A program made the translations under genes and the position numbers. Below the pieces are notes generated by a model. That model was not told the DNA's origin. It made no database searches and saw nothing but the letters and a program-made list of their open reading frames with translations. From contig JAHFAK010000083.1 in assembly GCA_023250585.1 (NCBI GenBank), positions 1-10,605 on the forward strand: DNA of 10,605 bases. The letters run 5' to 3'. Position 1 is the first letter of the stretch; each line of letters opens with the position of its first letter. Source of the DNA: Deltaproteobacteria bacterium. GTDB lineage: Bacteria; Bdellovibrionota_F; JAHFAK01. Shown piece by piece: positions 1 to 10,605 of this stretch.

Positions 1-3000
1 CACGATAGGCAATGATATATTTGTAGGTAAATATGCCTACATGAGCCCCGAGCAATTGCTGAGAAAAGAACTGACACCAAAATCTGACATATTTTCAGCA
101 GGCATTGTTCTCTATGAACTCCTCTTTAAGAAACTTCCTCCGGGACGAATGAGAAATAGAGACATTGTAGTACTTGATACCGATGAATCACAGATTGATC
201 CCGAGCTAGATATTCGTCTCATGAATACCCTTCCAAAAGAATTGAAAAATATTATCGAAAAGGCGACTGCAATCAATCCCGAAGATCGCTATAAGAATGC
301 GCTTGAATTTCACGTTGATTTAATGAGTTTTATTTTTACGCATAACAAACATGTCAATTCATTTTCTGTAGCCAATTATATCAAAACGGCATTTTCAGGT
401 GCCATGTATGGACGAGAGGAAGAAGAGAGAGAATCCGAGGCCATAACCCTCTCAGAAGCAGTAACTTCTTTTATCGAGCAAAAGAAAGTAGCTGTTCTGC
501 ATATCAACATAAAGCCTATCGCTCGAGATACAGGCAAAAATGAAGAAGTCCTTGGTATGTTTCAAGAAGTGTTGCGAATTGTACTTAAACATGGAGGAAT
601 TATTTATCGATTACGTGATACTGAACTCATTACGGTCTTTGGTCTTCCTAAAAATCAAGAAGATGATGTGTATCGAGCTTTGCTTACAACGTTAGACGTG
701 AAAAACTATGTAAGCGGACTCAAACTCAATTTTAAAGTCGCCCTGACTCAGGCTTTAGACTTTGGTACGGTTATTGTTAATTTTAAAGACGAAGACTTAA
801 ATAATTTTACTCTATCTGAAGGCCCTGAAAAACAAGTGAAAGACTTAATAGCCGCAGCTTCTCCCGGAGATATTCTCTGTGGTCCTTCGATTGAACGTAT
901 GACTAAAGATCAATTTGAATTTACCCAAGTTGAACGAAACAATCATCACTACACTCGATTGATTGATACTGCGAAAGACTTAAGTCAATTCAAAAGCTCT
1001 CATGATCACCAAGAGCACTTTGTTAATAGGAAGACAGAACTCGATAGTGTAGCTCATGCATTAAACGAAATAACTATCGACAAGGGAAAAACCATAACAA
1101 TAATTGGAGAAGCAGGAATTGGAAAAACTGCGCTTATTCGAGAAATTGCACGAAGGGCCGGAGAGTCGAATACTCAAATATTTATAGGATCATTTCATCC
1201 GTATATAAAAACTCCGTATTCAATCTTTAGACAATTAATTGTTCAACTCTTGAGTGATCAGAGTAATAACAGAGAAATTTCTTCATCACACATAGCAGAG
1301 CTGCAAGGTTATGGACTCACTCCCATGGAATTTGAATCAATGAAGAGCATTCTTTCCATGAGGTATAAGAGCGAAGCTTTAGATGCTCTTCCTCCAGAAA
1401 AGAAAAAAATAATCATCTTTCTTGCATTACGAAAGATCTTACTTGGATATGCGAATCAGAAGACGATCTGTGTCTTTGAAGATCTACACTTGGCTGATGA
1501 ATTATCGTTTGAAGCGATTGATTCAATTTTTGCCAATGGACCTCTTCCTAATATTCTCATGATTAAAACACACAGAAAAGAATTTTCATACATCTGGAAA
1601 AACCTGGACCTGGAAGAAATAACACTTCACCTTGAGCCACTTGATAAAAATAATTTAGGAAATTATTTAAAAACAATCACCCATATTCCTATTGAAGAAA
1701 ATTCGTTATCACAGATATATACAAAGTCATCGGGAAATCCGCTCTTTGCAGGAGAGCTTACTAAAAGCTTACTTGATAAAAATCAATTAACTAAAGTCGG
1801 CAATTCTTTGTGTTTAAGAAAAGATCGAGATGCATATATCATTCCCGATACGATTTACTCTTTACTCTCTGCGCGAATTGATTCTCTTCCTAAGTCCGCC
1901 AAAGAACTGCTGAGATTAGCAGCAGTCATTGGGAATGAATGTACCTTTGATACACTCAGTGTTCTTGCGAATAAAGACTCGAAAAATTTGAAACATACGC
2001 TTACCGAATTACAATCAGCCGGTATGATACAAGAAGTATCTTCTCAGAACACATACACGGTGACTCACGCGCTCATGAGGGATGTCGTGTATAACAACAT
2101 CCCTACTGACACGAGAAAGTTATTACACAAAAAAACAGCAGATTATCTTCTTGAAAAATACACTCATGAATTGGAAGAGCACACGAATGAGCTTGCGTAT
2201 CATTACAGTAATTCAAATGATGGAGAAAAAGCATTTCATTATTTAGTTAAGGCTGGTGATGAAGCACATAAAGTTTATCTCTTAAATGAAGCTCATCGAT
2301 ACTATAGTGAAGCCATTGTTTGTTTTACCAACAACCTCACACTCTTTGGCGATAGCTATCTCGTACTTATTGAACTTCATTATAAAGTAGGAATTATCAA
2401 TCAGATTCTAGGAAAACTTGATAATGCACTAACGAGTCTCAATGAAGCACTTAAAACTTCACAGGATCATCAGATCCAGGACTTTGTTCCAAAGATCTAT
2501 CATCAAATAGCACGTATCTTGAACATTAAAGGAGATTACAGCAAGGCTTTCCATTATATACAGGATGCTATAACTATTTCGAGTAATACCAATCCTTTCG
2601 ACACACTCGAATTCTTACATGAAGAAGCAAATATGTATCGAACGATCCATAACAATACAAAGGCCTTGGAAATACTCGAAAAAGGATTAAACGAAGCGAA
2701 ACATTTAGATGATAAGCAGTTGGAAAGTAAATACTTAAATAACTTAGGCATTCTCTACGGTGATATCAATTATAAAAAAGCTATCAGTTTTTTCAAAGAA
2801 TCGTATTTTTTGCGTAAACAAATGAATGATAAACTTGCTATCTCAGTTCTTTTTTCCAATGTTTCAGCACTTTGGTATAAAAATAGGAAATTCGATAAAG
2901 CGATTAAATATGCAAAATTAAGTTTACGTATTTCTTCTGAAATCGAAGATAAATTTGGCATATGCTTGAATCTTAATAATTTAGGAGAAATGTATTTAGC

Positions 3001-3352
3001 ACTTGATGATCTTGATAGAGCACTTTCTTATTTCAAACAAGGGCTAACACAGTCTCGTGAAATGTCGTGGAAAGAAGGAATAGTTGCTTCGACGATTCAT
3101 ATATGCCTTATCAATGTACTTAAGAATCACAATATACCTGAAACAAAAAAGATACTTGAGGGATCTCTTAAGGGAGCACAAGAATTGCAACACCCAGAAT
3201 TAATCGCTAAAACATATCTTGTACAATCGAAAATTCTTGCTCTTGAAAACAAAGTTGAGGAATCAAACGTAGTTTTCAAGAATGCTCAGGATGTAATTAA
3301 ACAAAATAACCTTTCAAAGTATCTGCAGGATTTTGAGAGAAAAATTCATTAA
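1..3352 (+). CDS. Ser/Thr protein kinase - cyclase-like - STAND ATPase - TPR regulator (C-terminal part)
   Basis: The reading frame is open from the left edge (first full codon at position 2), so the N-terminus, including the kinase N-lobe and HRD/DFG motifs, lies outside the window; the first ATG at 41 is internal. Visible are 1116 residues. Residues 1-105 are a kinase C-lobe: the activation-segment end GKYAYMSPEQ, the subdomain IX Asp (D29 in SDIFSAG) and the subdomain XI Arg (R96 in INPEDR). Residues about 160-310 resemble a class III nucleotide-cyclase fold (GGIIYRLRDTELITVFGLP) but seem to lack the metal-binding Asp pair. Residues about 340-600 form a P-loop ATPase with Walker A GEAGIGKT (369-376), Walker B ICVFEDLH (489-496) and GNPLF at 578. 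TPR-like helices fill about 735-1110. Family knowledge suggests a cytoplasmic sensor that couples ATP-dependent assembly to Ser/Thr phosphorylation. Its ligand and targets are unknown. Confidence 0.9.
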   Translation, partial: TIGNDIFVGKYAYMSPEQLLRKELTPKSDIFSAGIVLYELLFKKLPPGRMRNRDIVVLDTDESQIDPELDIRLMNTLPKELKNIIEKATAINPEDRYKNALEFHVDLMSFIFTHNKHVNSFSVANYIKTAFSGAMYGREEEERESEAITLSEAVTSFIEQKKVAVLHINIKPIARDTGKNEEVLGMFQEVLRIVLKHGGIIYRLRDTELITVFGLPKNQEDDVYRALLTTLDVKNYVSGLKLNFKVALTQALDFGTVIVNFKDEDLNNFTLSEGPEKQVKDLIAAASPGDILCGPSIERMTKDQFEFTQVERNNHHYTRLIDTAKDLSQFKSSHDHQEHFVNRKTELDSVAHALNEITIDKGKTITIIGEAGIGKTALIREIARRAGESNTQIFIGSFHPYIKTPYSIFRQLIVQLLSDQSNNREISSSHIAELQGYGLTPMEFESMKSILSMRYKSEALDALPPEKKKIIIFLALRKILLGYANQKTICVFEDLHLADELSFEAIDSIFANGPLPNILMIKTHRKEFSYIWKNLDLEEITLHLEPLDKNNLGNYLKTITHIPIEENSLSQIYTKSSGNPLFAGELTKSLLDKNQLTKVGNSLCLRKDRDAYIIPDTIYSLLSARIDSLPKSAKELLRLAAVIGNECTFDTLSVLANKDSKNLKHTLTELQSAGMIQEVSSQNTYTVTHALMRDVVYNNIPTDTRKLLHKKTADYLLEKYTHELEEHTNELAYHYSNSNDGEKAFHYLVKAGDEAHKVYLLNEAHRYYSEAIVCFTNNLTLFGDSYLVLIELHYKVGIINQILGKLDNALTSLNEALKTSQDHQIQDFVPKIYHQIARILNIKGDYSKAFHYIQDAITISSNTNPFDTLEFLHEEANMYRTIHNNTKALEILEKGLNEAKHLDDKQLESKYLNNLGILYGDINYKKAISFFKESYFLRKQMNDKLAISVLFSNVSALWYKNRKFDKAIKYAKLSLRISSEIEDKFGICLNLNNLGEMYLALDDLDRALSYFKQGLTQSREMSWKEGIVASTIHICLINVLKNHNIPETKKILEGSLKGAQELQHPELIAKTYLVQSKILALENKVEESNVVFKNAQDVIKQNNLSKYLQDFERKIH

Positions 3353-3394: not shown

Positions 3395-3766
3395 CTATGC
3401 TGCTTTTAAGTTAAACTCAATTGCCTCATAATCAACAATGGGCTTCTTCATTGGTCGTCCCTGTACTTTTCTTTCGAGAACCTTAATAACTCCAAGGGTT
3501 TCAAAAAAAATAATCAACTTGTTTACATTGGATTGATCCTTCCCAACTATTTTGGCAAGCTCATAAATTGATCTTGGATGAAATGATTGAATGCACATAA
3601 GGATATCGATATTTTTGATAAACTTCTCGAAATCACGTTTATTATCAAATGCAATTTCATAATGAGGTATCATTTTTCTTTTCTTTGCTTTTATCTCTTG
3701 TAAAGTTCGTGCAAAATCAGTGAGTGATTCACTCGCCGTTTTTAATGAAATGATTAATTTTCTCAT
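3395..3766 (-). CDS. tumA: TumA-like antitoxin, winged-HTH DNA-binding protein
   Basis: This is a 123-residue basic protein. Residues about 50-105 read as a winged helix-turn-helix: helices around IDILMCIQ and SIYELAKIVG, a recognition helix KDQSNVNKLIIFFETLG, then a wing VIKVLERKVQGRPMKKP. This matches the HVO_A0114/TumA group of putative DNA-binding antitoxins. The ATG overlaps the stop of the upstream TumE-like gene by 4 nt (ATGA), and GGGAG (3778-3774) sits 7 nt before it, so translation is probably coupled. The usual role would be to neutralise the partner and repress the shared promoter; the dyad at 4080-4099 is a candidate target. The N-terminal 45 residues form a basic amphipathic helix, possibly the toxin-binding part (inference). 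A MarR-like regulator unrelated to toxin-antitoxin function is possible. Confidence 0.7.
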   Translation of the reverse strand: MRKLIISLKTASESLTDFARTLQEIKAKKRKMIPHYEIAFDNKRDFEKFIKNIDILMCIQSFHPRSIYELAKIVGKDQSNVNKLIIFFETLGVIKVLERKVQGRPMKKPIVDYEAIEFNLKAA

Positions 3767-4059
3767 AATTTTACTCCCATATGCTGATAAATAAGGTTTT
3801 TAAAGTCCTCTATTAACTGTTCTTCATTCCTATAGGTGTATTCATATTGTACACCATTTATATGAACATGATGTCCCTTCGGATGATGATTATCCATTAA
3901 AACCTTATTATTAGTTTTCGTATCATAAAAAATAAGACTATATTTTACTCCATCAGGGTATCGCTCTACATCTTCCACTATATAAATTGTTTCTTCTAAA
4001 ATATATCGATACCGGATTGTTTCTTTTAAATGGAATAGAACCGTTGCTTTAGGGCTCAT
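3763..4059 (-). CDS. tumE: TumE-like toxin (DUF6516 family)
   Basis: This is a 98-residue protein with the pattern I associate with TumE/DUF6516: an N-terminal strand pair with a basic region, a YSLIFYD strand, the His-rich signature DNHHPKGHHVH (residues 56-66), an aromatic strand VQYEYTYRN and a terminal helix QLIEDFKNLIYQ. The molecular target of TumE is not established. The gene is first in a two-gene unit and overlaps the antitoxin start by 4 nt; toxin-first order fits this family. No Shine-Dalgarno sequence lies before the ATG. Instead the predicted transcription start falls on the A of the ATG, which suggests a leaderless transcript. The length is normal to slightly short and the reading frame is intact, so the module looks functional. 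The family call comes from recognition without a database search. Confidence 0.7.
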   Translation of the reverse strand: MSPKATVLFHLKETIRYRYILEETIYIVEDVERYPDGVKYSLIFYDTKTNNKVLMDNHHPKGHHVHINGVQYEYTYRNEEQLIEDFKNLIYQHMGVKL

Positions 4060-4326: not shown

Positions 4327-4373
4327 ATTTTTCCTATTTTGAGTACACATTCTTAGTCATGTGTTCGAAAAAT
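4327..4373. promoter_or_regulatory. Nested inverted repeats with a candidate enhancer (UAS) dyad
   Basis: The inner perfect dyad is ACACAT (4345-4350) - 8 nt - ATGTGT (4359-4364). Outside it lies a second perfect 7-bp pair, ATTTTTC (4327-4333) and GAAAAAT (4367-4373). The inner dyad is centred about 123 bp upstream of the predicted sigma-54 start at 4478, within the usual range for an enhancer-binding activator of sigma-54. The activator is not encoded in the window as far as I can see. Confidence 0.45.
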
Positions 4374-4422
4374 GGGATTATTGCCAAACCATACGGTGCT
4401 AAATAATCGGTAACCTTCTGTC

Positions 4423-4450: not shown

Positions 4451-4467
4451 TTGGCATAGCACTTGCA
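4451..4467 (+). promoter_or_regulatory. Sigma-54 (RpoN) promoter of the six-gene operon
   Basis: TTGGCATAGCACTTGCA matches the -24/-12 consensus YTGGCACG-N4-TTGCW. The invariant GG (4453-4454) and GC (4465-4466) have exactly the required spacing, and two consensus positions differ (C to T, G to A). The predicted start is about 4478, giving a leader of roughly 10 nt that still contains the GGAGG at 4480-4484. No sigma-70 promoter of comparable quality was seen near this gene. Confidence 0.75.
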
Positions 4468-4487: not shown

Positions 4488-5474
4488 ATGAATATACAAA
4501 AAACTTTTACCATTCTTTGCGGTGTTTTTTTTCTCTGGAGTAATTTTATATATGACAATCCTGCGGTCGCATCTCTTCCTCTGTGCGGAATGTTTGGGAA
4601 ACTACCCTCATCTCAGAAAGGAAAGATTATGAAAAAAGCATCAAAAGAACACACTCCACTTCGTATTGCTCTTATTGGAGGAACACATGGAAACGAACGA
4701 TTGGGAATTGAAATTGTTTCTCATTGGTCACACGCAATTCCTTTTGAAACTCCACATATAATTGAACCAATGATTGCAAACCAAAAAGCAGTTGATTCAG
4801 GTCTTCGCTTTATTGATTATGATCTCAATCGCTCCTTCGGAAAAAACTCAACACCATCAGGCTATGAAGCAGAACGAGCCCGTGAATTGACAGAAAAGAT
4901 TAGTGGAAATTTTGATCTTGTCATTGATCTTCATACAACAACTTCACATATGGGCTTTACGATCATTCTACCAAAAACAGATCCATTAAGCCGCCGAGCG
5001 GCTCTCTATCTTAAAACTCACTTTCCTGATATCACTATAATTGAATCATTGAGAGTTGATGAAAATAGCCTGTTTATCAGTGCTCTTGCCCCGAGTGGAC
5101 TTCTTTTTGAAATTGGTCCCGTAGCAAATAATATTGTGAATACTCAATTATTACTTACATTGAATACCATTCTTACAAAACTTCTCACCTGGGATTTTGG
5201 AGAAATAAACGTACCTAAGTCCTGGTATTACTATAAAATTGTCGACTATCTCTATTATCCTAAGGAAGGAGGCCCATACTACATTCATCCTGAACGTGAG
5301 GGCAAAGATTTTGTAGCAGTGAAACACGGTGATCCTTTATTTATCGATCTTAATGGAAAGACACTTGTGTACGAAGGTGAAGAATTCTATCCCTTCTTCA
5401 TTAATGAAGCTGCGTATAGGCTGTCACGAATTGCTATGTATACATCAAAAAAAATGGAGGGGTGGAAAGAATAA
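4488..5474 (+). CDS. Aspartoacylase-family zinc amidohydrolase with N-terminal signal-like extension
   Basis: This 328-residue protein belongs to the aspartoacylase (ASPA/AstE, M14-like) family, which hydrolyses N-acyl amino acids such as N-acetylaspartate. Visible are the zinc ligands H67 and E70 (GGTHGNE) and H149 (DLHTTTSHMG), the substrate site RFIDYDLNR (R107, N114, R115), the catalytic Glu E208 in LLFEIGP and the C-terminal HPEREGKDF, HGDPLF and NEAAY (Y310) motifs. About 58 residues precede the first catalytic strand, far more than in human ASPA. The extra part reads as a signal peptide: K5, hydrophobic residues 6-22, and an AVA-type cleavage site near residue 28. GGAGG precedes this start by only 3 nt. 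An internal ATG at 4629 with a better-spaced site would give a 281-residue cytoplasmic form of family-typical length. It is the first gene after the sigma-54 promoter. The true acyl-amino-acid substrate is not known. Confidence 0.85.
   Translation: MNIQKTFTILCGVFFLWSNFIYDNPAVASLPLCGMFGKLPSSQKGKIMKKASKEHTPLRIALIGGTHGNERLGIEIVSHWSHAIPFETPHIIEPMIANQKAVDSGLRFIDYDLNRSFGKNSTPSGYEAERARELTEKISGNFDLVIDLHTTTSHMGFTIILPKTDPLSRRAALYLKTHFPDITIIESLRVDENSLFISALAPSGLLFEIGPVANNIVNTQLLLTLNTILTKLLTWDFGEINVPKSWYYYKIVDYLYYPKEGGPYYIHPEREGKDFVAVKHGDPLFIDLNGKTLVYEGEEFYPFFINEAAYRLSRIAMYTSKKMEGWKE
4617..4631 (+). promoter_or_regulatory. Alternative ribosome binding site and start of the aspartoacylase gene
   Basis: AAAGGA (4617-4622) lies 6 nt before an in-frame ATG at 4629-4631. 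Initiation here gives MKKASKEHTP directly before the conserved core and removes the signal-like segment. Both starts may be used, or the upstream one may serve only for export. Confidence 0.45.
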
Positions 5475-5498
5475 TCTATTTACTACAAAGGAGGATTT

Positions 5499-6266
5499 AT
5501 GGAAGTACTGAATCAACGATATCATAATGATCCATTTGCTCTGAGAGCAGTGAGTTATAAAATAGGATGTAATCAATTTGCTCACGTACGCCGCGAAGAA
5601 AGAGCCCATCTCTTTACCGATATTCCTATAATGAATAGTCAAAAAGCTCTCGAACTCCAATCAGGATCTGGTTATGTTTCAGACGGATTAAAAGAAATTG
5701 CTCCGAACATTGATGTCGTTTGTATAGAACCTTCTCTAAGTTTAGCGCAAACTACTTTAGATAAGTATCCCACTATCTGCGCTCCACTTGAGTCCATTCC
5801 ACTTGCAAATAACTCAGCTGACTTAATTTTTGTTCTTGCAGGATTTCATCATTCCCCTTCTTTAGCTCCAATAATTACAGAGATACAAAGAATACTGAAA
5901 TCTGGAGGATATGCATCGATAGCAGAAGTACTCAAGGGATCAAAAGAGGCGCGTTGGCTTAATGAATATGTAGATAAACATACGACAAGGGGACACAAGG
6001 GAATCTTTATATCAGAAGGAGATTTTTCTGAACTCTTGGTACAAGAAGGATTTACTGATATACATGAAGAAAGAAAAACAATTCATTGGCTCGCAAAGGA
6101 TAGAAATGAATTATTACAATTTCTCAAAACATTATTTGGCCTTGAATGCTCACTCAAACAAATCGATCAAGACATTGATGATTATTTACATCCACTAGAA
6201 TTACCAGGGGGATATGGAGTAAAATGGAATCTGTTGTATGCACAAGGGAAGAAACATGAATGCTAG
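5499..6266 (+). CDS. SAM-dependent class I methyltransferase
   Basis: This 255-residue protein has a Rossmann-type methyltransferase core (Methyltransf_11-like) at about residues 46-145. Motif I is ALELQSGSGYVSDGL (50-64), in which the usual Gly before the GxG is Ser/Gln-substituted (QSGSG). The acidic residue that binds the SAM ribose is E77 (VCIEPS). Motif IV is DLIFVLAGFHHS and the motif V region is ILKSGGYASIAEV. The C-terminal 100 residues are helical and probably form the acceptor-binding cap. A strong AAAGGAGG (5487-5494) fixes the ATG. It follows the aspartoacylase by 24 bp and overlaps the transporter by 11 nt. The context suggests methylation of a small molecule that the neighbouring ligase also handles, but N-, O- or C-methylation cannot be told from the sequence. 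Confidence 0.85.
   Translation: MEVLNQRYHNDPFALRAVSYKIGCNQFAHVRREERAHLFTDIPIMNSQKALELQSGSGYVSDGLKEIAPNIDVVCIEPSLSLAQTTLDKYPTICAPLESIPLANNSADLIFVLAGFHHSPSLAPIITEIQRILKSGGYASIAEVLKGSKEARWLNEYVDKHTTRGHKGIFISEGDFSELLVQEGFTDIHEERKTIHWLAKDRNELLQFLKTLFGLECSLKQIDQDIDDYLHPLELPGGYGVKWNLLYAQGKKHEC
6243..6258 (+). promoter_or_regulatory. Ribosome binding site that selects the MFS start at 6256
   Basis: AAGGGAAG (6244-6251) is 4 nt before ATG 6256-6258. An ATG 18 nt upstream (6238) is in frame but would place this site inside the gene, so 6256 is preferred. Confidence 0.6.
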
Positions 6267-7455
6267 GGCAACGTTTATAAAAATTTGGGCTGCTTCTTTT
6301 ATATCTACCATTGGAACCTTCATGCTGCTCCTTGCTATAACAGCAAAAGTATATACCCACACTCATTCAGTTTTTTATTCTTCATTAGTATTCCCCTCCC
6401 AGTGGATTGCCGGACTCTTTTTACTATCCCTTATAGGAAATTGGTCTCAAGGCAAAAGAGTACATAAAAGATTTCTCATGTCTGAATGCTGTGGAGCATT
6501 TTTTTCAGTTCTTGCAGGGTATGCATTTAATAGATCGGCACTCCTACTTTTTTTATTTTTATCTCTTAGAGGAATAGGAGAAAATGCAACAAAGGCAGTC
6601 CGATCAGTGAGCATGAAACGATACTTTGATGGAGATGAACGCAAAAAAGCAAGTTCATTGATCAATTCATCATACTATTTAGGAACCGGCGCTGGTGCAC
6701 TCTTAGGGAGTTATTTCATTAATTATTTTTCGATTCTAGAGCTAGCGTACATTGATGGAGCAACTTTTATAGTATCAGGAATACTCTATTATTCAGTTGG
6801 ACCAGAGCAATCCGCAGCTTACGAAATATCATCCGGTAGCTCATTAAAAGAAACACTCAATGAGTGGAAAAAGCATCCTTCATTACTCGGAATTATTGGA
6901 TATACGATTTTAGCAGTAGCAGCATTTCAAGGATTTCACAATCTCTGTCGAGGACCATTGCCTATTACAGTACTAAATATAGGAGAAAAAGGAGTTCTCT
7001 ATTTCCAGTTAACTTTTTGTATAGGAATTACATTGGCAACTATTATCGTAAAACGATATTTTTATAAAACATTTTGGGAGAAAAGTATCCCTTACATGAT
7101 TGGAGGATTACTCCTTATTCCTCTGATAGCATATACCCAATTACTATGGTTAAACTTTGTATTTTATTTTCTCATGGCACTCATATTCGAAATAATATTT
7201 ACCATTAACTATAAAGAAGCAATTGAACACTGCCCCGAACACCTTATTGGAAAATTAGGTGTTATTTTTCCTACCTTTGCATCGTTAGCTATGACAGCCA
7301 CGATTCTTTTTTTTGGAAAGATTATGGACTGGAAGGATTTTCAAACAGGTTCACTTATACTCTTTTGTTTTTTTGAACTCTCTTTTTTAGCAAGTTTTGT
7401 CTTCTATAAGATATTCATGAGGAAGTATGTACAAGAAACATCTCGTATTTGTTGA
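6256..7455 (+). CDS. MFS transporter, DHA3-like drug or metabolite exporter
   Basis: This is a 399-residue inner-membrane protein with 10 to 12 hydrophobic segments (first three near residues 9-30, 40-61 and 78-103). The loop 2-3 signature is GNWSQGKRVHKR (61-72), a relaxed form of motif A in which the usual Asp is Ser or Gln. The segment DERKKASSLINSSYYLGTGAGALLG followed by an IDGATFIVSGILY helix resembles DHA3-type exporters (EntS/MFS_3). These usually expel siderophores, drugs or other small metabolites with proton exchange. A central cytoplasmic loop near 184-208 separates the two halves. The start overlaps the methyltransferase end by 11 nt and the end overlaps the ATP-grasp gene by 29 nt, so translation is probably coupled. 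The likely cargo is the product of the adjacent enzymes (inference). Confidence 0.85.
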   Translation: MNARATFIKIWAASFISTIGTFMLLLAITAKVYTHTHSVFYSSLVFPSQWIAGLFLLSLIGNWSQGKRVHKRFLMSECCGAFFSVLAGYAFNRSALLLFLFLSLRGIGENATKAVRSVSMKRYFDGDERKKASSLINSSYYLGTGAGALLGSYFINYFSILELAYIDGATFIVSGILYYSVGPEQSAAYEISSGSSLKETLNEWKKHPSLLGIIGYTILAVAAFQGFHNLCRGPLPITVLNIGEKGVLYFQLTFCIGITLATIIVKRYFYKTFWEKSIPYMIGGLLLIPLIAYTQLLWLNFVFYFLMALIFEIIFTINYKEAIEHCPEHLIGKLGVIFPTFASLAMTATILFFGKIMDWKDFQTGSLILFCFFELSFLASFVFYKIFMRKYVQETSRIC

Positions 7456-8701
7456 AACAAATCAAAATGGCTCTCTTGCGCTTAGCGTGGCAGAAAAGAT
7501 GGGTTATATGGTTAGTTTTATCTATTCCCCTTTATACGAAAACCTTTTTCTTCGATCAAAAACCATCGATTTAAATAAATTATCATTCATTGAAACAGTT
7601 GATGATTCTTTTGATTATGTTTGTCTTAAAAAGGCGATTATTAAAATAAATTCCAAAAAAAAAGTTGATTGTATTTTATCAGTTGTTGATCAAACAATAC
7701 TTCCCATTGCTAATGTTGCAAGAGATTTAAATATTCCATTTACTCGACTTGAAGCAATTGAGCTTACAAAAAATAAATATAAATGTCGACAGTTTCTAAA
7801 AAATCATACCGTAGAAGTTGGAAATTCTTTTCTTATTAGAAATGAAGAAGATATAAAACATATAAAAGACAATATAGCGTATCCTTGTATTATGAAACCA
7901 AACGAGGGAGCAGGAAGTTACTATAGTCATATTATTGATTCATACGATGAACTACTTACTGTATATTCTAATTATAGTAAGGAGTTTTATTTAAAAGGAA
8001 TTCCAAAAAATAAAATCGCATCAGATGAACTCGTTGTAGAAGAATATTTCGAAGGTCCTTTATTTTCTGCTGAAATCGGAATTAATGAAGGGACCATTAT
8101 TGTATTTGCAGTAGGGGAAAGAAAACGTTGGGCAAAAAATGAGGTAATTGAACTTGGGACAACGATTCCATCAGTATATTCTCAAAAAGATTTAACGTTA
8201 CTAGAAGAATATGCAAAAAAAATAGTTCGTGTACTCAACCCTATAAGAGGTATTTTTCATATTGAAATGATTTTAACCAAAGATGGGCCTCGACTAATTG
8301 AAGTAAACCCTCGTCTGATGGGTGGTAATGGTCCATTGTTATTAAGTTATGCATGTGACATTAATATTTTTAAATATTTAATTCATATTCATTTACAAAA
8401 GAAATGTCCTAAAAAAGAATTTCGTTCTCATAATCCCATTACCTCACGACTCTTTGGTGCAGGAGGTCCTGGAATAACAAAAAATGATATCGATTGGTCA
8501 TGGCTTGACCACTATAAAAATCGCCTTGTTTCGTTTACATGCTCTGTGAAACCCAATCAGGAAGTAAAAGAGGTTACCTCAAACTATGGATATTTAGGAT
8601 CTTTTCAAGTAAAAGGAACTACTGCTCAAAACTCTATTGCCTTAGCAGATGAGATTCTCCAAAAAGTTGAATTAACTCTTGGAGTGGAGATTACCAAATG
8701 A
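7427..8701 (+). CDS. ATP-grasp carboxylate-amine ligase (L-amino acid ligase/carnosine synthase-like)
   Basis: This 424-residue protein has a pre-ATP-grasp Rossmann domain (about 1-112), an ATP-grasp core (about 113-310) and a C-terminal lobe ending in GYLGSFQVKGTTAQNSIALA, as in L-amino acid ligases of the BacD type. Visible are the ATP-binding Lys K157 (YPCIMKPNEGAG), the hinge VVEEYFEGP (E205-E206) and the metal ligands E280 (FHIEMIL) plus E292 and N294 with R296 (LIEVNPRLMGG). Such enzymes activate a carboxylate as acyl phosphate and join it to an amine, commonly making dipeptides, and work in the cytoplasm. GAGG (7419-7422) lies 4 nt before the ATG, inside the transporter gene. An A9 run at 7655-7663 encodes three lysines. 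The substrates cannot be read from the sequence; acyl-amino acids or methylated amino acids are suggested by the neighbours. Confidence 0.87.
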   Translation: MYKKHLVFVETNQNGSLALSVAEKMGYMVSFIYSPLYENLFLRSKTIDLNKLSFIETVDDSFDYVCLKKAIIKINSKKKVDCILSVVDQTILPIANVARDLNIPFTRLEAIELTKNKYKCRQFLKNHTVEVGNSFLIRNEEDIKHIKDNIAYPCIMKPNEGAGSYYSHIIDSYDELLTVYSNYSKEFYLKGIPKNKIASDELVVEEYFEGPLFSAEIGINEGTIIVFAVGERKRWAKNEVIELGTTIPSVYSQKDLTLLEEYAKKIVRVLNPIRGIFHIEMILTKDGPRLIEVNPRLMGGNGPLLLSYACDINIFKYLIHIHLQKKCPKKEFRSHNPITSRLFGAGGPGITKNDIDWSWLDHYKNRLVSFTCSVKPNQEVKEVTSNYGYLGSFQVKGTTAQNSIALADEILQKVELTLGVEITK

Positions 8702-9783
8702 AAGTAATTCAAATTATTACTATTGTGTATTCTTTAGTAGTATCTTGTAGTCTTTTTGCAAAAGTAAAAGTGTGTTATGTTGGTGAAAGTCGCCGATTTG
8801 GTCCTATTAATGAAAAGAGTACTAATCCTCGAATTGCCGGCTTTGTTCTTGCCAAAGAAATGATTAAGGATTTTAATTTATATATAGATTTTTTATTTAT
8901 TGATCTTGGTCCTGAATTTAGCCTTATAGACAAACTCGAAGCGGGCAAAAAACAAGGTTGTATTGTATATACCGGTCTTATTACTTCTGATGAATCCTTA
9001 CTTGCTGGACCATGGTTAGTAAAAAATAATCTATTTGGGATTTCTCCGACAGCAACAGCAGAGAAGCTACAATCATTTCATACTCACTTTAGAACACTCA
9101 TGGCATCATCAGAGATATTTGCTGAGAATATCCGCTCTTTTATTGAAAAAAAATCTCCACAGAAGATATTTATTATCTCATTTAGCGATGATCCGTATTC
9201 GTTAAATATATTGGGGAGCTATTCTCATGTTTTTAGAAAGTCTCCTGTTACTCGATATGAACTCAATATTCCAAAAGGAGGCACTATTGACATAAAGGAA
9301 TTAAAAGAAATTACTTCGGCAAAACGTTCTGCTGTACTTTTTACCGGGTATGATTATGCGAGCCTTAATGTCCTTGAGCAATTGAAAAAGCATAGTAGTA
9401 GCTTTAATCAGAATAACGATTTTATCGTAGGTGCTCCTTCATGGAGTTTTTCCGATACTCTTCATGCATCGACAAAACATATAAATTCCTTTAACGAGGT
9501 ATATATCACATACTTTCCTGTACCTCATAAGAGATCTCTTCTCTATCAAAAATATATTGAACGATATGGAGAAAAACCTCGTGAGAAAATAGCCTTCTCT
9601 TACGACTCTCTTGATTTCATCTTCGGATGTTCAAAAAAAACAGGCAATAACAAAGAAAAATTATTTGAATGCCTGAGAAAAAATACTATGTTTGAAGGAC
9701 AGTCAGGAAAAATAACACTGATTACAGGTAAAGCTCATGCAAAACCAACAATTCTTATTAAAAAGATAAAGAGGCAAGTATAA
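8698..9783 (+). CDS. Periplasmic-binding-protein type 1 (Leu/Ile/Val-binding-like) sensor or binding protein
   Basis: This 361-residue exported protein has a hydrophobic N-terminal segment (residues 3-16). It contains a lipobox-like VVSC with C17, and an alternative signal peptidase I site after A21 (SLFA). The mature part has a type-1 periplasmic-binding fold: KVKVCYVGESRRFG at the start, GIVAxGL-like second strand equivalents (GCIVYTGLITSDESLLAGP), then KIFIISFSDDPYS and SAVLFTGYDYASLNVLEQL in lobe 2. The late segment YITYFPVPHKRSLLYQKYIERYGEKP is typical of Peripla_BP_6. These proteins bind small amino acids or related ligands. No permease or ATPase gene follows. Instead the stop overlaps the histidine kinase start by one base (TAATG), as in LuxP-LuxQ-like sensor pairs. 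It overlaps the ligase by 4 nt (ATGA), with GGAG-rich sequence upstream. Confidence 0.8.
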   Translation: MKVIQIITIVYSLVVSCSLFAKVKVCYVGESRRFGPINEKSTNPRIAGFVLAKEMIKDFNLYIDFLFIDLGPEFSLIDKLEAGKKQGCIVYTGLITSDESLLAGPWLVKNNLFGISPTATAEKLQSFHTHFRTLMASSEIFAENIRSFIEKKSPQKIFIISFSDDPYSLNILGSYSHVFRKSPVTRYELNIPKGGTIDIKELKEITSAKRSAVLFTGYDYASLNVLEQLKKHSSSFNQNNDFIVGAPSWSFSDTLHASTKHINSFNEVYITYFPVPHKRSLLYQKYIERYGEKPREKIAFSYDSLDFIFGCSKKTGNNKEKLFECLRKNTMFEGQSGKITLITGKAHAKPTILIKKIKRQV

Positions 9784-10605
9784 TGAGTAATCCCTCATTT
9801 AAAACTTATATTAAAATTATCTTTATCGGTATTAGTATTATTCAGCTTCTCATATTTATAACTCATATCTATTTTTCTTTTAAGAAAGATTTAGAACTTC
9901 TTTCAGTTAAGACAAAGAAAGAATTCAAATCCATTTTTGACTTTCATCATGTGTATCTGGCAACTGATATTCTTTTAGGCGAAAAAGAAATTATTCAATA
10001 TCTCCTGCAAAGGATTAGTATTCATAATAATATTGCAATTACCTATTCATCAGAAAAAGCTACCGTAAAAACATTTCCTCCTTTATTCGAAGGAAATCGT
10101 ACTGTGCAAGATTCATTTTTAATAATTTATGGAGGTGAAAATTTAGGAAGATTAACTCTTACTAAGAGATTTACCTTTTCTTTTTTAGATTATCTTGAGC
10201 AGTTTAAGGAATTGATATTTTTTCAATGTACTTTTCTTCTGCTTTCATTTTTTTTAATCTGGAAATTTTTTAATAAAAAAATATTTCTGCCTTCGACACG
10301 ACTTCTTGAACTCAAAGACAAAAAACACAATCTTCTCCCTTCTTTTAATCGTTTGATTCCTCAAGAAATAATAACTATTGTTTTCAGTTTACAAAAAGCT
10401 CGCCTCAATGAACTCGAATTTGAAAAAGCAAGAACAATTGCTGCCATAGCTGCTCAAGTCGCCCATGACATACGCTCTCCCTTATCAGCATTAAATTCGA
10501 TTACCCGTGAACTTCCTGAGTTATCGGAAGAGAAGCGTTTACTCATTCGTGGAGCTGTTCAGCGAATTGATGATATTGCCAATGATCTTGCATCAAAAAA
10601 GAAAA
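9783..10605 (+). CDS. Membrane sensor histidine kinase (N-terminal part, truncated by the window edge)
   Basis: The visible 274 residues start at the ATG in the TAATG junction. A first transmembrane helix (about 9-32), a roughly 110-residue extracytoplasmic domain rich in beta strands and a second transmembrane helix (about 143-163) are followed by a short linker and the HisKA helix. The H-box is AAQVAHDIRSPLSAL with the phosphoacceptor H228 (codon 10464-10466). The HATP ATPase domain lies beyond the right edge. The extracytoplasmic part is too small for a complete ligand-binding fold of its own kind that I recognise, so input through the binding protein encoded just upstream is a reasonable inference. 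Its response regulator is not in the window and may follow it. Confidence 0.85.
   Translation, partial: MSNPSFKTYIKIIFIGISIIQLLIFITHIYFSFKKDLELLSVKTKKEFKSIFDFHHVYLATDILLGEKEIIQYLLQRISIHNNIAITYSSEKATVKTFPPLFEGNRTVQDSFLIIYGGENLGRLTLTKRFTFSFLDYLEQFKELIFFQCTFLLLSFFLIWKFFNKKIFLPSTRLLELKDKKHNLLPSFNRLIPQEIITIVFSLQKARLNELEFEKARTIAAIAAQVAHDIRSPLSALNSITRELPELSEEKRLLIRGAVQRIDDIANDLASKKK

Follow-up and report, generated by a model that had tools for sequence, protein, structure and literature searches.

The 10,605-base stretch analysed here, referred to as the window, makes up contig C160 in full, one of the 164 contigs of a 2.24-Mb genome. Its plus strand carries a six-gene operon that is very probably a sensing operon under sigma-54 and two-component control. 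The operon probably makes and exports a product. The reading that best accounts for the whole, and which we put forward tentatively, is that it makes, exports and monitors its own amino-acid-derived product. Sister operons with other enzymes and other binding proteins occur in the same genome, and the plan recurs in a second MAG. The host phylum is represented by just two genomes in the comparison set, the host's included, and a search of the host genome for a 16S gene returned nothing.

Gene content and regulatory region of the operon

The initial annotation described six same-strand genes at 4488-10605, all but one pair overlapping, and assigned each to a family. All six open reading frames were recovered at these coordinates on one strand (Table 1). 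The intergenic gaps are +24, -29, -29, -4 and -1 nt, so that every pair but the first overlaps. The family assignments are upheld by Pfam and NCBIfam scores, for the binding protein by an AlphaFold model compared with Foldseek, and for the kinase by its TM segments and phospho-acceptor motif. Neither Rfam nor tRNA scanning produced a match in the window.

Table 1. Features of the operon and of the DNA it has in common with the C64 sister operon
Feature	Position	Strand	Basis
Promoter region common to C64 sister operon, through start codon	4226..4492	+	92% identical (blastn, alignment)
Imperfect inverted repeat, 19-nt arms, 79% complementary	4332..4377	.	Conserved in C64
Sigma-54 (-24/-12) promoter TTGGCATAGCACTTGCA	4451..4467	+	Exact GG-N10-GC match
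N-acyl amino-acid deacylase, aspartoacylase/succinylglutamate desuccinylase family	4488..5474	+	NF002601, PF24827, PF04952
Class I SAM-dependent methyltransferase	5499..6266	+	PF08241 (Methyltransf_11), 51.9 bits
MFS transporter, probable exporter	6238..7455	+	PF07690 (MFS_1), 76 bits; relatives beside related ligases
ATP-grasp amino-acid ligase	7427..8701	+	PF13535 (ATP-grasp_4), PF02655 (ATP-grasp_3), about 60 bits
LivK-type (type I) extracytoplasmic binding protein, N-terminal export signal	8698..9783	+	AlphaFold model, Foldseek; hydrophobic segment 3-21
Sensor histidine kinase, cut by contig end	9783..10605	+	Two TM segments, ~110-residue periplasmic domain between, then DHp helix
Kinase-core DNA common to C64 kinase	10446..10605	+	93% identical; final 105 bases identical; assembly breaks here

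The promoter TTGGCATAGCACTTGCA lies 20 nt upstream of the ATG at 4488; with one mismatch allowed, it is still the window's only match. Across 194 kb of loci from the host genome, 11 strict sigma-54 sites were observed, compared with 0.18 in shuffles. All 11 belong to the window or to the loci on contigs C64, C153, C102, C75 and C14, with none in the remaining loci of the set. The inverted repeat, about 75-120 bp upstream of the promoter, may be the enhancer site at which an NtrC-type regulator binds. The C153 and C102 sigma-54 promoters have upstream elements that resemble each other, ATACATTCTG..AATACATGA (L070 1000-1165 and L071 10100-10250). They are candidate activator sites for the regulators of the two operons, which are related proteins, 63% identical. 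At the contig ends L069, L138, L139 and L140, a sigma-54-type promoter is followed by an identical gene start, MKRAFITEHGPLVRRLSEL, possibly the beginning of Ser/Thr kinase - cyclase-like proteins.

Two other loci lie upstream of the operon. Positions 2-3352 encode a Ser/Thr kinase - cyclase-like - AAA - TPR protein, whose best NCBIfam match, the TOMM kinase/cyclase fusion TIGR03903, scores 160 bits, below the cut-off. A 74% identical copy is found on the C102 contig (L071 1-3355), and both are cut at the same base. On the minus strand, 3395-4059 holds a two-gene unit with overlapping ends, encoding a 98-aa protein with no Pfam match and a 123-aa HVO_A0114 winged-helix protein; its layout is toxin-antitoxin-like.

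The deacylase and the ligase

The deacylase scores 219 bits against NF002601 (cut-off 180) and retains the HGNE, DLNR, DLHTTTS and FEIGP motifs; in the alignment, the zinc ligands and the catalytic Glu are present. In human ASPA we take the Arg at position 168 to contact the aspartate side chain. The aligned residue is Ser in the window deacylase, Ile in a Vibrio relative and Arg in Nostoc. Because this Arg is missing, N-acetyl-aspartate is not to be presumed the substrate. An in-frame N-terminal extension (4488-4628), hydrophobic or signal-like in appearance, precedes the family homology, and the true start may be the ATG at 4629, some ten residues ahead of that homology. Similar extensions of roughly 30-60 residues are seen at L073 7378-8577 and 6351-7334, L140 3168-4001 and L139 752-1858. 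The extended enzymes of these operons are of cytosolic types (deacylase, aldolase-like, methyltransferase), and the extensions could reflect misassigned starts, remnants of cassette exchange or genuine membrane targeting.

The ligase matches PF13535 at 60 bits, and the ATP- and Mg-binding residues of the ATP-grasp fold, K157, E280, E292, N294 and R296, are conserved. It is related to the L-amino-acid ligases 3vot and 4wd3 and scores below the cut-offs of both LAL_C2 (25.3 vs 29.4 bits) and the DdaF model (49 vs 840). From these scores the enzyme appears akin to BacD and DdaF, yet it is not classed as either.

The binding protein and the kinase

The window binding protein has no Pfam match. Its AlphaFold model, built from five distant relatives and of middling confidence (pLDDT 65, pTM 0.66), was used for fold class alone. 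Foldseek matched the model to PDB structures of LivK/LivJ-type type-I binding proteins (best E = 2e-12). The adjoining gene encodes a kinase with a periplasmic domain, its two TM segments being about 110 residues apart, an arrangement like that of LuxPQ. The HisKA match of this kinase is weak (19.7 bits vs a cut-off of 26.9), and it carries a clear AHDIRSPL phospho-acceptor motif. The kinase is read up to base 10605, with the catalytic domain beyond the contig end, and the window, which stops inside the kinase, contains no response regulator.

No ABC genes lie within the window, and no ABC permease genes were found in the sister operons within the stretches read. The sole BPD_transp_2 pair of the host genome is on C48, beside a binding protein of its own. 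The second MAG has no BPD_transp_2 permease, though it encodes several type-I binding proteins.

A sister operon with the same ends and a different middle

The operon on C64 shares both ends of the window operon (Table 1). The left-end homology includes the start codon: the ATG of the C64 NtrC-type regulator, the first gene of that operon, corresponds to the window ATG at 4488. At the right end, the kinase cores are 81% identical, while the sensor halves have no similarity. The two binding proteins are 18% identical, and the enzymes differ, with a deacylase, a methyltransferase, an MFS protein and a ligase in the window as against a methyltransferase and an SDR in C64. These comparisons suggest that the regulatory ends were retained and the enzyme-sensor cassette between them was swapped. 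The two kinases could both feed one regulator. Contigs C160 and C64 both stop at the kinase repeat. C34 was considered as the continuation of the window kinase and rejected, its DNA being just 83% identical; the repeat end is on no third contig.

A family of sensor operons in the host genome

Sister operons were found by searching for kinases and sigma-54 activators and then reading the neighbourhoods with Pfam. The host genome has at least six further operons with enzymes and/or an exporter, each of which also encodes a histidine kinase, an NtrC-type regulator and an orphan binding protein. Most of them lie behind the same type of sigma-54 promoter. The gene orders are as follows: in C64, regulator-methyltransferase-SDR-PBP-kinase, with the sigma-54 site directly before the regulator; in C153, regulator-MFS-radical SAM-SBP_bac_5 (two copies)-kinase, with one site before the MFS gene and one before a divergent ligase/MFS pair; in C5, regulator-threonine-aldolase-like-methyltransferase-ABC_sub_bind-kinase; in C102, regulator-[EamA+PBP]-kinase, with a site directly before the exporter-binding protein ORF; in C91, methyltransferase-hydrolase-MATE-acyltransferase-SBP_bac_5-kinase-regulator; and in C14, PfkB-aldolase-SBP_bac_1-kinase-regulator, with a site directly before this set. 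C75 (radical SAM-MFS-kinase-regulator, with a site directly before the radical SAM gene) is without a binding protein, and C101 consists of an SBP_bac_3-type protein and a kinase only. The NtrC-type regulator is thus present in six binding-protein sister operons and also in C75.

In C102 a single ORF codes for both EamA (from residue 28) and Peripla_BP_6 (339-679), separated by a signal-like segment. Unless the second part is translated from an internal start, this ORF ties an exporter to a sensor binding protein more clearly than any other locus. The classes of enzyme and binding protein also tend to match: the window pairs an amino-acid ligase with a LivK-type protein, and C153 pairs a radical SAM enzyme with oligopeptide-type proteins.

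Some genes were set aside. Nucleoside-salvage genes on C14 were rejected as members of that operon, as they are located ahead of its sigma-54 promoter. Proteins of LpoA-like type on C93, G001 C209 and G145 C24 also have a binding-protein domain but represent another class and were left out. A biosynthetic-looking operon on G000 contig C23 (L147 440-8207) has no kinase; it encodes an asparagine-synthetase-A/aaRS-like protein, a methyltransferase, an LD-carboxypeptidase-like protein (MccF type by eye), an MFS protein and two ATP-grasp proteins.

Occurrence in a second MAG and in other genomes

The closest relative found of the window ligase, 35% identical over 218 readable residues, comes from a groundwater Deltaproteobacteria MAG, JACPFF01 (G145). 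Its gene lies in the order ATP-grasp - [radical-SAM-like + MFS] - lipoprotein - kinase - second ATP-grasp. Another G145 locus reads ATP-grasp - GNAT-like - EamA - type-I binding protein, followed by a contig break, and a third reads hydrolase - binding protein - kinase. A radical SAM - MFS - kinase set in G145 matches C75 (radical SAM 52%, MFS 35%). On the G145 contig bearing the ligase-EamA-binding protein operon there is a regulator 60% identical to that of C64, and the binding protein of this operon is a homologue of the C64 one (E 3e-53). On G145 contig C5 (L152 3092-7275), a radical SAM/SPASM peptide-maturase-like gene has as neighbours a kinase and what may be a precursor, its tail a Cys/Asp-rich repeat, GPCDTDCDDVGKCDVDGSCDVDSGCDCDGHDSCDSDCDD; this may be a RiPP locus under kinase control.

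A related ligase followed by an MFS protein homologous to that of the window is found in four other genomes: Burkholderia (two genomes), Tistrella and Phyllobacterium. In a comparison with 13 other MFS proteins, these ligase neighbours alone matched the window MFS at E below 1e-5. PLP, HMGL-like and haem-oxygenase-like enzymes occur in the clusters of Burkholderia and Tistrella, and mangotoxin, an ATP-grasp peptide product, is made in comparable enzyme company (PMC13185094). Because the ligase-MFS pairs sit in biosynthetic-looking clusters, synthesis and export are favoured over import. Plasmid ligase-MFS neighbours in Erwinia, Rahnella and Klebsiella were not counted as instances of this pair; the Erwinia and Klebsiella MFS proteins, the two compared, have no detectable homology to that of the window.

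Conservation of gene order had been proposed as a check on the operon. The exact order occurs in no relative found; what recurs is the ligase-exporter pair and the overall plan. The six-gene order was absent from 145 widely sampled whole genomes of the domain in a ligase search, from the one other examined genome of the phylum, from plasmids, and from genome contigs scanned with two peptide patterns, which distant relatives could escape. A six-sequence ligase alignment offered no stretch conserved enough to serve as a scan pattern.

What the operon may do

The claim that the operon makes, exports and senses one molecule stands in part: the self-contained layout is real and repeated with other enzymes, but sensing of its own product is conjectural, given sister operons that look catabolic or detoxifying. 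The sigma-54 promoter and the exporter-binding protein ORF of the C102 sister operon make one functional unit likely. In the mechanism we propose, sigma-54 would drive all six genes as a single operon, and the deacylase, methyltransferase and ATP-grasp ligase would assemble a short modified amino-acid conjugate for export by the MFS protein. Outside the cell, the LivK-type protein would bind this conjugate, or a close mimic, and signal via the adjacent kinase to an NtrC-type regulator, which would activate the operon's sigma-54 promoter, a positive autoinduction. That the three enzymes share a pathway and the MFS protein is an exporter is our inference, as is the identity of the regulator as that of C64 or one past the contig end.

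Gene linkage, the C102 ORF and the match between enzyme and binding-protein classes point to the operon's own product as the ligand, an identity that is plausible at somewhat under even odds. For the reading as a whole, we count in its favour the overlapping genes, the sigma-54 promoters, and the promoter and kinase core shared with C64; the six or more further binding protein-kinase-regulator operons, the C102 fusion and the ATP-grasp - GNAT-like - EamA - binding protein locus of G145; and the ligase-MFS pair in four other genomes, the lack of ABC permeases in the operons and the class match. Counted against it are that the exact order is found nowhere else, that the window contains no regulator, and that C14 and C91 fit nutrient use and detoxification.

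With its MATE pump, hydrolase and hexapeptide acyltransferase, C91 looks like a detoxification operon. The window operon might likewise be a defence cassette, in which a foreign compound, such as an antibiotic or peptide from neighbours, is detected as an external ligand, modified by the enzymes and expelled by the pump. MFS, MATE and EamA proteins are frequent drug pumps, and methyltransferases and deacylases can inactivate compounds. However, the ATP-grasp amino-acid ligase is a synthetic enzyme whose closest relatives lie beside related MFS proteins in biosynthetic-looking clusters, and we regard this explanation as unlikely. C14, in turn, looks like a catabolic operon for sugar use: PfkB and class II aldolase are accompanied by a sugar-type binding protein, a kinase and a regulator behind a sigma-54 promoter, and nutrient genes are often under sigma-54 control. 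By analogy, the binding protein and kinase of the window operon could sense an N-acyl amino acid or peptide from outside, which the MFS protein would import, the deacylase degrade, and the ligase and methyltransferase process further. An ATP-spending ligase and a methyltransferase are atypical of a catabolic set, and the MFS relatives are found in biosynthetic-looking clusters, which makes nutrient use less probable still. That recombination at the repeated promoter and kinase sequences inserted unrelated genes, leaving the enzymes and the sensor pair without a common function, would fit the different middle between the homologous ends of C64 and the absence of the exact order elsewhere, but is improbable given the overlapping genes, the recurrent ligase-MFS pair, the exporter-binding protein fusion and the like plan in the second MAG.

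Returning to autoinduction by an exported conjugate, a wider extension can be considered. The 2.24-Mb genome has at least eight binding protein-kinase operons, and each might make and hear a different molecule. The regulatory ends (sigma-54 promoter, enhancer, kinase core and NtrC-type regulator) would then be interchangeable and would flank swapped enzyme, exporter and sensor genes, with counterparts in the second MAG. Such a repertoire of signalling cassettes is a doubtful proposition. If ligand and product are the same, new bacterial signals could be found with the receptor attached, the binding protein beside the enzymes being used to fish for the molecule, and an uncultured lineage would turn out to have many private chemical channels, governed by one sigma-54 control scheme. 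With an external ligand, the operons would form a catalogue of matched sensor-enzyme-pump sets, usable as biosensors. Either reading can be tested without culturing the organism.

Comparison with known systems

The initial annotation knew of no described system of this composition, and targeted searches of open-licence full texts likewise found none. Its parts are known singly: binding protein-kinase pairs, kinases in biosynthetic clusters, and operons such as agr that make, export and sense a signal. The agr and Lqs quorum-sensing operons encode signal production and a histidine kinase within a single transcription unit, and their signals are peptides or ketones. They are not known to have a separate binding protein or a sigma-54 promoter, in contrast to the window operon, whose signal would be a ligase product. 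The bacilysin and dapdiamide clusters contain ATP-grasp amino-acid ligases and tailoring enzymes. The window operon resembles these and the mangotoxin cluster (PMC13185094) in joining a ligase to tailoring enzymes, and an MFS gene adjoins the ligase in the related Tistrella, Burkholderia and Phyllobacterium loci. Those loci lack a binding protein-kinase pair, and their tailoring enzymes differ from those of the window. In a survey of biosynthetic clusters (PMC10663231), 204 of 2,694 contained histidine kinases; its main text mentions neither solute-binding proteins nor ATP-grasp, both of which the window operon has.

LuxP-LuxQ, TorT-TorS and XylFII-LytS are pairs of a binding protein and a sensor kinase (PMC6321045). 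As we propose for the window operon, a periplasmic binding protein in these systems relays ligand binding to its partner kinase, and LuxPQ reads a bacterial autoinducer. To our knowledge, the maker of the ligand lies outside the sensor operon in all three. The window operon, unlike them, places enzymes and an exporter with the sensor pair under a sigma-54 promoter, in a plan repeated many times. The combination of these elements in a repeated family of sigma-54 cassettes did not turn up in the literature searched.
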